This document shows positions 20,271 through 22,463 of a stretch of 64,000 nt of DNA, one piece after another. The notes under the pieces are model-generated. The model made no database searches, had not been told where the DNA came from, and saw nothing but the letters and a program-made list of their open reading frames with translations. The stretch is from Vulcanimicrobiota bacterium (lineage in GTDB: Bacteria; Vulcanimicrobiota; Vulcanimicrobiia; Vulcanimicrobiales; Vulcanimicrobiaceae): assembly GCA_027459645.1 (NCBI GenBank), contig DAIDHQ010000009.1:1-64000 (forward strand). Direction: 5' to 3'. Both the position numbers and the translations under genes were made by a program. Within the stretch, counting starts at the first letter, position 1; every line of letters begins with the position of its first letter.

Positions 20271-20693
20271 ATGTCCGACGAGCACCAGGCCCCGCCCCTC
20301 GCCCAGCGTATCCGCGCCCTTGCCGACTACTTTGTCGGGACGGACCTCTTGCGGCTTCGCATCGAGCGGGAGAATGAAGAAATAGAACTGGGGCGGCGCC
20401 ACATGCACCCCGATCTGGTCCCCGAGATCCCCGAGGATCTTGCGGCCCATGAAGCGGCTGCGGCGCGCCTCGAACCGATCAAGGCCGATCTGGTCGGCAT
20501 CTTTCACCTGAGCCGTCCGTCGATCTCGGCGGGCGACTTGCTGGAAGGCGACCGCGAACTTGCGTACGTCGAAGCCCTCGGCATCCGCAATCCCGTTCGC
20601 AGCCGCGGCGCCGGCCGCGTCGCATCCATCATGGCCGAAGACGGACGCGCCGTCGAATACGGCCAAGTGCTTTTCGAGATCGATCGCGGATAG
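20271..20693 (+). CDS. BCCP-like biotinyl domain protein lacking the biotinyl lysine
   Basis: A 140-aa protein with the layout of acetyl-CoA carboxylase biotin carboxyl carrier protein: helical N terminus, short linker and C-terminal barrel-sandwich domain (about 68-138, IKADLVGIFHLSRPSI to VEYGQVLFEI). The biotinylation loop, normally EAMKMMN, reads EALGIRN, with Gly104 where biotin-Lys should be. It therefore cannot be biotinylated in the usual way. It lies directly upstream of accC in the same reading frame, separated by TAG. In plants, BADC proteins of this kind dampen ACCase; a similar role is inferred. GTG at 20238 is an alternative start. Confidence 0.8.
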   Translation: MSDEHQAPPLAQRIRALADYFVGTDLLRLRIERENEEIELGRRHMHPDLVPEIPEDLAAHEAAAARLEPIKADLVGIFHLSRPSISAGDLLEGDRELAYVEALGIRNPVRSRGAGRVASIMAEDGRAVEYGQVLFEIDRG

Positions 20694-20702
20694 GAGCCCG
20701 TC

Positions 20703-22055
20703 ATTTTCCAAAAGGTACTCATCGCCAATCGTGGCGAGATCGCCCTGCGCATCAATCGCGCCTGCCGGGAACTCGGCGTGCGAACCGTTGCCATTTTCTC
20801 CGAAGCGGATCGCGAGTCGCTGCACGTGCGTCACGCCGACGAAGGTTTCTGCGTCGGACCGGGACCGGTTCCGCGCTCGTATCTCAACATTCCGAACATT
20901 ATCTCGACCGCGCTCGTCACGGGATGCGATGCGATTCATCCAGGCTACGGCTTCCTGGCGGAAAACGCGCGCTTCGGCGAGATCTGTGCCGATCACGGCT
21001 TGACCTTCATCGGACCAAAGCCCGCGGTCATTGCGGCGATGGGCGATAAGGCGACGGCGAAACGCGTGATGAAAGAAGCCGGCGTAGCGACGACGCCCGG
21101 AACCGACATTCTGGATTCGGTCGAAGAAGCGAAACGCGCGGCAGAAACCGTGGGCTATCCCGTGCTGCTAAAAGCGACGGCCGGCGGCGGCGGCAAGGGC
21201 ATGCGCGTCGTGGAGCGGCCCGAGGATATGGAACGCGCGTATACGAGCGCGACCGCGGAGGCCGAGGCGAGCTTCAAAGACGGTCGCGTCTATATGGAAA
21301 AGCTCATCTTGCATCCGCGCCACATCGAAGTGCAAGTGCTGGGCGACGAATTCGGCAACGTGGTCAGTCTCGGCGAGCGCGACTGCTCGGTACAGAAACC
21401 GTCGCACCAAAAATTGATCGAAGAGTCGCCCGCCCCGCATCTGCCCGAGAAGGTGCGCGAATCGCTGCTGGAAATGGCGGTGCGTGCCTGCCGGCACGTC
21501 GGCTATACCAACGCGGGAACGCTCGAGTTCTTGGTCAGCGGCGAAAACGTGTACTTCATGGAGATGAACACGCGCATCCAGGTCGAGCATCCGGTGACCG
21601 AGATGGTCTACAGCGTCGATCTCGTCAAGGAGCAGATTCGCATCGCCGCCGGTGAAGCGCTCGGCTATACCCAGCGGGATCTCCAGTTGCGCGGCCACGC
21701 GATCGAATGCCGCATCAACGCGGAAGATGCGCGCAATAACTTTTCGCCGCAGGCCGGCACGCTGACGCGCGTCGTGTTCCCCGGTGGACCCGGCGTCCGC
21801 GTCGATACCCACGTGTATTCCGGAACGATGGTTCCGCCGTACTACGATTCGATGATCGCGAAGATCGTAGCGTTCGGCGCGTCGCGCGAAGCCGCGATCG
21901 CACGTATGGAACGCGCATTGCGTGAAACGGTGATCGAAGGCGTGAACACGACGATCGACATGTGCTTGGAGATTCTCGCGACGCCGCAATTCCGCGAAGG
22001 GCGCTACGACATCGGATTCCTGCCCGAGATGTTAACGGCGGGGGCGGCAACGTAG
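20703..22055 (+). CDS. accC: Biotin carboxylase AccC, apparently with ATT start
   Basis: ATP-dependent carboxylation of biotin on BCCP, the first half-reaction of acetyl-CoA carboxylase. The ATP-grasp enzyme shows LKATAGGGGKGMRVV (glycine-rich loop), EMNTRIQVEHPVTE and RGHAIECRINAED. The conserved N terminus (FQKVLIANRGEIALRINRACRELG) is encoded upstream of the first ATG/GTG/TTG. Reading from ATT at 20703 gives 450 aa, exactly the family length, with AGGAG six bases upstream (20692-20696). In-frame TAG at 20691 blocks any earlier start. GTG at 20778 would delete the conserved nucleotide-binding start. Confidence 0.93.
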   Translation: MFQKVLIANRGEIALRINRACRELGVRTVAIFSEADRESLHVRHADEGFCVGPGPVPRSYLNIPNIISTALVTGCDAIHPGYGFLAENARFGEICADHGLTFIGPKPAVIAAMGDKATAKRVMKEAGVATTPGTDILDSVEEAKRAAETVGYPVLLKATAGGGGKGMRVVERPEDMERAYTSATAEAEASFKDGRVYMEKLILHPRHIEVQVLGDEFGNVVSLGERDCSVQKPSHQKLIEESPAPHLPEKVRESLLEMAVRACRHVGYTNAGTLEFLVSGENVYFMEMNTRIQVEHPVTEMVYSVDLVKEQIRIAAGEALGYTQRDLQLRGHAIECRINAEDARNNFSPQAGTLTRVVFPGGPGVRVDTHVYSGTMVPPYYDSMIAKIVAFGASREAAIARMERALRETVIEGVNTTIDMCLEILATPQFREGRYDIGFLPEMLTAGAAT

Positions 22056-22463
22056 ATGCCCTCCAGAAGACAGGGGCGCGAACAGGCGCTGCAGGCGCTC
22101 TATTCGATCGTGGTCGGCCATCGCGAACCGGGCGAAGCGTTGAACGAAGTCGTCGGCGAGGGTGCGGATACGGACCATCGCACCTTCGTCCGCGATCTCG
22201 TGTTCGGAACGCTCGAACACGCAAGCGAGGCCGATCTCGTCTTCGCCCCGCTCTTGGAAGGATGGACCATCGAACGATTACCGACGATCGACCGTTTGCT
22301 CTTAGAGATGGGCACGTTCGAACTGCGTAATCGACCGGAGTTACCGGCCGCGGTCGTCATCAATGAGGCCGTCGAGCTTGCGAAGAAGTTTTCTACCGAG
22401 GAATCCAACCGTTTCGTCAATGGCGTTTTAAATGCAGTCGCGAAAGAAGCGAGCCGCTCGTAA
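22056..22463 (+). CDS. nusB: Transcription antitermination factor NusB
   Basis: Binds boxA RNA with S10 during rRNA antitermination. A 135-aa all-helical protein with the typical RQGREQALQALYSI start and a C-terminal segment (LPAAVVINEAVELAKKFSTEESNRFVNGVLNAV) that is the standard NusB signature. The ATG follows the accC stop directly. The 3' end overlaps the PBP gene by 32 bases, which points to coupled translation. Confidence 0.96.
   Translation: MPSRRQGREQALQALYSIVVGHREPGEALNEVVGEGADTDHRTFVRDLVFGTLEHASEADLVFAPLLEGWTIERLPTIDRLLLEMGTFELRNRPELPAAVVINEAVELAKKFSTEESNRFVNGVLNAVAKEASRS

Follow-up and report, generated by a model that had tools for sequence, protein, structure and literature searches.

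An apparently genuine, conserved and weak ATT start codon of the biotin carboxylase gene accC in the family Vulcanimicrobiaceae

To our knowledge, start codons outside the set ATG, GTG and TTG are retained by few bacterial genes, and of those that have been characterised most encode regulators. The accC gene examined here specifies one subunit of the enzyme for the first committed step of fatty-acid synthesis and seems to begin at ATT, which raises the question of where its translation starts and whether such a codon is an error, a tolerated oddity or a feature kept by selection. The window, that is the whole stretch of DNA analysed (64,000 nucleotides), lies on contig C9 of a 3.14-Mb draft genome of 47 contigs, from the phylum Eremiobacterota/Vulcanimicrobiota and very probably from the family of Vulcanimicrobium (named Baltobacteraceae in PMC9758169). 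The reading favoured here, with a probability of about 0.88, is that the start of accC is genuine, conserved and weak.

Direct reading of the accB–accC junction (GAG ATC GAT CGC GGA TAG GAG CCC GTC ATT TTC CAA AAG GTA CTC ATC GCC AAT CGT GGC GAG) agreed with the original prediction that the upstream frame is shut by TAG at 20691 and that AGGAG lies six bases before ATT, and revealed no in-frame ATG, GTG or TTG between TAG 20691-20693 and ATT 20703. The features of the locus are as follows.

20271..20693, + strand: accB, biotin carboxyl carrier protein, with the C-terminal residues YGQVLFEIDRG before the stop; start at ATG 20271 or GTG 20238
20691-20693, + strand: accB stop TAG, by direct reading; closes the accC frame four codons upstream of ATT
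20692..20696, + strand: AGGAG Shine-Dalgarno sequence, overlapping the accB stop; 5-base match to the anti-Shine-Dalgarno complement
20697-20702, + strand: spacer CCCGTC of six bases between AGGAG and ATT
20703..20705, + strand: ATT, probable start codon of accC, from direct reading, relatives, codon-level conservation and the tree
20703..22055, + strand: accC, acetyl-CoA carboxylase biotin carboxylase subunit, 450 aa, TIGR00514 match; stop TAG 22053-22055
20778..20780, + strand: GTG, first in-frame canonical start, codon 26 of accC; rejected as start
22056..22463, + strand: nusB, TIGR01951 match of 125.4 bits, over the cut-off; adjoins the accC stop without a gap

The accB product matches TIGR00531 over its C-terminal half with a score under the family cut-off, and nusB belongs, by arrangement, to the same operon as accC. 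Folding of the accB–accC junction gave no signal of RNA structure (z-score 0.0), and an Rfam search of the window returned no match. The 3' end of the 16S rRNA gave no match to a fixed pattern in this draft, where it may be absent or divergent, and the anti-Shine-Dalgarno sequence used throughout is therefore an assumed one.

Regarding the protein, translation from ATT 20703 gives the N terminus (M)FQKVLIANRGE, and the 450-aa product scores 658.4 bits against TIGR00514 (cut-off 626.5), covering profile positions 2-446 of 449. Its residue 2 aligns to residue 2 of the biotin carboxylase structure 1bnc, and the alignment of solved biotin carboxylases to AccC begins at residue 2. Conservation sets in at the same point: among the seven nearest relatives (the genome itself included) the majority residue is held at 43-47% over the twenty codons preceding ATT (47% in the nearest ten) and at 98% in codons 2-26, where third positions vary about as in the remaining gene. 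Profile, structure and onset of conservation thus agree with the earlier claim that ATT 20703 yields the conserved N terminus of a 450-aa AccC.

The codon itself is ATT in all seven of these relatives, and none of the 13 internal isoleucine columns invariant among them is ATT throughout, seven being ATC throughout. In the weak-start accC genes of the family (those beginning with ATT, ATC or GTT), ATT and ATC stand at 20:10 at the start position against 217:694 inside the gene (odds ratio 6.4, P 1e-6, with related genomes counted as independent), and because of this skew the start codon is unlike an ordinary isoleucine codon. A scan for coding potential over about 864 kb of the genome, independent of the junction reading, also flagged accC. 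On these comparisons there is little reason to doubt that ATT 20703 is the true start codon of accC.

Strong AccC matches were found in 91 of 99 genomes of the same family, and the start region was counted in 89. The homologous codon is ATG in 33, ATT in 20, GTG in 19, ATC in 10, TTG in 3 and GTT in 2 of these, the other 2 being CGC, with GTG next after it, and AGC, with GTG just before it. Weak starts are therefore present in 32 of the 89 genomes, across about a dozen genera, with ATT in g1, g2, g5, g6, g7, g14, g20, g24 and g31 and ATC in g5, g8, g22, g23 and g34; beyond the genome studied, 19 species of the family carry ATT and 12 more carry ATC or GTT. In 21 of the 32 weak-start genes no in-frame ATG, GTG or TTG precedes the upstream stop. 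The GTT starts belong to two related species of genus g5 (L142 and L143, in G012 and G013). The cultured Vulcanimicrobium alpinum (very probably genome G086, locus L146) has ATG at accC, and this ATG against the conserved ATT or ATC of its relatives offers a natural comparison for why a poor start codon is kept. No ATT-, ATC- or GTT-type accC start was detected in 14 loci of another family of the class (f3), in four of another family of the same order (f2), in six from other families of the phylum or in 78 loci of other phyla. Comparison of the codon in related genomes, which had been proposed as a check, hence points to a conserved weak start and not to an error, the codon being confined to one clade with canonical starts outside it. 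A search of open-access papers found nothing relevant on an accC gene with an ATT start.

Three readings would do away with an ATT start altogether. An error of sequencing or assembly, or a mutation private to this genome, concealing a true ATG or a damaged gene, would be in keeping with a draft in 47 contigs and with the rarity of ATT starts, a single AUG-to-AUU switch having been recorded among 61,358 ancestral AUG starts in other genomes (PMC5622118); it is refuted, with a practically negligible probability left, because the weak codon is conserved across independently assembled genomes, those of the 31 further species given above, and the remaining accC frame is intact and conserved. Initiation further down, from GTG 20778 or from the TTG that some relatives carry as codon 6, would produce a shortened AccC and can point to the GTG as the first canonical in-frame start and to the presence of that TTG in 20 of the 32 weak-start genes. 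Both candidates were rejected: the 25 residues lost from the GTG start are conserved as protein and present in solved biotin carboxylases, the form beginning there scores 608.6 bits, under the TIGR00514 cut-off, with the first 26 profile positions missing, and TTG is missing at codon 6 from 12 of the 32 genes, the window having CTC there, so that a downstream start is very improbable. An AccB–AccC fusion made by ribosomes that read through the accB stop or shift frame, with ATT as an internal isoleucine codon, could draw on the accB TAG, which in the window is in frame with accC. It is equally improbable, because the relative frame and spacing vary among weak-start relatives: accC lies in one frame relative to the accB stop in 17 of them and in the others in 8 and 6, and the accB stop and the accC start are 1 to 27 bases apart wherever accB was located among the weak-start genes. 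Moreover, the codon belongs to the near-start set and amino-acid conservation ends at ATT. With the ATT start retained, gene finders restricted to ATG, GTG and TTG would make AccC 25 residues too short here, or over-extend it where the upstream frame of a relative is open.

Regarding the history of the codon, a quick maximum-likelihood tree of AccC, from which the first codon was left out (107 rows), places all 32 weak starts in one clade of 55 rows (SH-aLRT 90) with a total branch length of 7.5 substitutions per site. Inside this clade 5 switches between weak and canonical starts are enough, against a mean of 17.8 and a minimum of 11 with shuffled labels, and interchanges between ATT and ATC number 7 among 30 rows, about equal to shuffled labels. 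The pattern fits a weak start gained about once at the base of the clade, followed by exchange among ATT, ATC and GTT and by a few reversions to ATG or GTG, a direction of change that we infer beyond what the parsimony counts show. Since about 40% of the clade's rows carry ATG or GTG, the weak start can be dispensed with over time.

The Shine-Dalgarno sequences differ between the two classes, matches of at least 4 bases being present at 31 of 32 weak and 17 of 55 canonical starts (odds ratio 69, P 3e-10, with related genomes counted as independent). Only 4 well-supported independent pairs could be drawn from the tree; the longer match goes with the weak start in about 2.3 of them and never the reverse, which is not significant with so few pairs.

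A further reading accepts the weak start and takes it for tolerated drift, with strong coupling to accB, a codon identity of minor consequence and no benefit in regulation or dosage. The movement among ATT, ATC and GTT, the several reversions to ATG or GTG and the nearness of the accB end wherever it was located are what such drift would leave. Against it, ATT is one transversion from ATG, yet only the 5 changes of class occurred over the branch length of the clade; ATT is preferred to ATC against the codon usage of the gene; the Shine-Dalgarno matches are longer at weak starts; and AUG starts elsewhere are under purifying selection (PMC5622118). Drift of this kind is unlikely, and the comparison of relatives argues with good confidence that the weak start of accC has been kept by selection.

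AUN codons are paired by fMet-tRNA with a third-position mismatch, and IF3 discriminates against them. The AUU of accC would be read in this manner, with initiation enabled by AGGAG and by termination of accB translation nine bases upstream, to which it may be coupled, so that accC translation would be weak and in step with accB. An altered initiator tRNA was considered and rejected, nothing odd being seen among the typed tRNAs (three with a CAT anticodon and one Ile-GAT; only part of the 46 predicted tRNAs were typed). To judge from characterised cases, ATT would initiate well under the level of ATG and keep AccC low relative to AccB from the same mRNA, and a low set-point for AccC appears reasonably probable. 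Since IF3 rejects this class of codon, AccC output would be expected to drop at high IF3 and to climb at low IF3; by the same analogy, the chance that accC is IF3-sensitive in the cell is put slightly above even. That this sensitivity is the selected purpose of the weak start is possible and rather doubtful, a lower AccC output with a better balance with AccB being an equally simple benefit, and sequence does not distinguish selection on the low AccC level from selection on IF3 sensitivity.

The original prediction had described ATT starts as very rare, with E. coli infC and pcnB as known cases; the known starts other than ATG, GTG and TTG are more numerous than these two, including sigR with GTC (PMC5472188) and cvfC1 with AUU and ccpN and citZ with AUA (PMC13009471). 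Escherichia coli infC shares with the accC studied here an AUU start with a Shine-Dalgarno sequence, of the codon class disfavoured by IF3, but it is the regulator's own gene in an IF3 feedback loop, whereas accC has a metabolic function, sits downstream in its operon and is a candidate for regulation. E. coli pcnB is, like accC, a non-IF3 gene with an AUU start, which is taken to limit expression (Binns and Masters 2002, as cited in PMC13009471), and differs from it in function and operon context.

In Streptomyces, sigR starts at GTC, or at GTT in 2 of 34 species, is repressed by IF3 in measurements, and owes to its GTC start the ratio to its operon partner RsrA (PMC5472188). It resembles accC in having a non-canonical start that is kept across a bacterial group though the codon itself shifts somewhat (GTC and GTT there; ATT, ATC and GTT here), a strong Shine-Dalgarno sequence and a start missed by standard annotation, and the GTT of its two species recurs as the accC start of L142 and L143. 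The two differ in that sigR is regulatory with IF3 repression measured, while accC encodes an essential enzyme subunit for which such repression is predicted. Staphylococcus aureus has AUN starts with extended Shine-Dalgarno sequences in cvfC1 (AUU), ccpN (AUA), citZ (AUA) and infC (AUA), and in reporter assays in poor medium its AUU and AUA starts yielded about 10% of the output from AUG; the cvfC1 and ccpN starts are conserved between species, and the citZ AUA is found only in one strain lineage (PMC13009471). This set is like the family studied here in combining an infC AUA with a central metabolic enzyme (citZ) in one organism; it comes from a different phylum and different genes, and the accC weak start, unlike that of citZ, spans many genera. 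By its distribution among relatives, the non-canonical start of accC is a conserved one; it belongs to an essential metabolic gene, and its evolutionary record is unusually broad and well resolved.

IF3 was found in 84 of the 99 family genomes, that of the window included. The start of infC is ATA in all 29 readable loci of relatives (within L201-L230) and in the genome itself (G000:C6 about 183280, L279), and in several infC loci a stop just upstream closes the frame, leaving no canonical start. Because infC starts at ATA family-wide, IF3 probably controls its own synthesis here as in E. coli, by analogy, and AUN starts are tolerated by the organism. Control of accC by IF3, as suggested in the original prediction, is plausible, and the invariant ATA of infC in the same family lends it circumstantial support. 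It is a speculative and rather unlikely extension that infC (ATA), accC (ATT/ATC) and pth (ATC/ATA; see below) form a small IF3-controlled set in this Eremiobacterota clade that couples fatty-acid synthesis and peptidyl-tRNA recycling to the condition of translation initiation; if it were true, membrane synthesis would track ribosome capacity.

The coding-potential scan, run in pieces over 27% of the genome and 818 genes, flagged 28 genes, accC included, in which the coding signal begins before the first canonical start, a count without false-positive control from a survey that detects only genes set to lose at least 8 codons. Separately from accC, the gene named by eye as pth, peptidyl-tRNA hydrolase (G000:C6:149689-150258, L301), sits just after an apparent rplY/L25 gene and has an apparent ATC start with GGAGG 8 bases upstream, and in relatives (L302-L330) an apparent ATC or ATA start is present in several genera. 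Four pth loci of genus g5 (L313, L316, L317 and L327) contain neither ATG, GTG or TTG nor any AUN codon in the stretch from the upstream gene's in-frame stop to the GLGNPG motif; at L327, GAGGAG and the stop are followed immediately by GTC. Three other genes, likewise named by eye, have candidate non-canonical starts: in an hflX-like GTPase gene (G000:C22 about 197268, L290) the coding region opens about 40 codons ahead of the first canonical start, with a candidate CTG and GAGG upstream; an RsbU-like phosphatase gene (G000:C30 about 40086, L263) has a candidate ATC or adjacent CTG six bases after GGAGG; and in a gene for a PASTA-domain-like protein (G000:C30 about 163925, L269) a candidate CTG lies seven bases after GGAGG and overlaps a TGA as CTGA.
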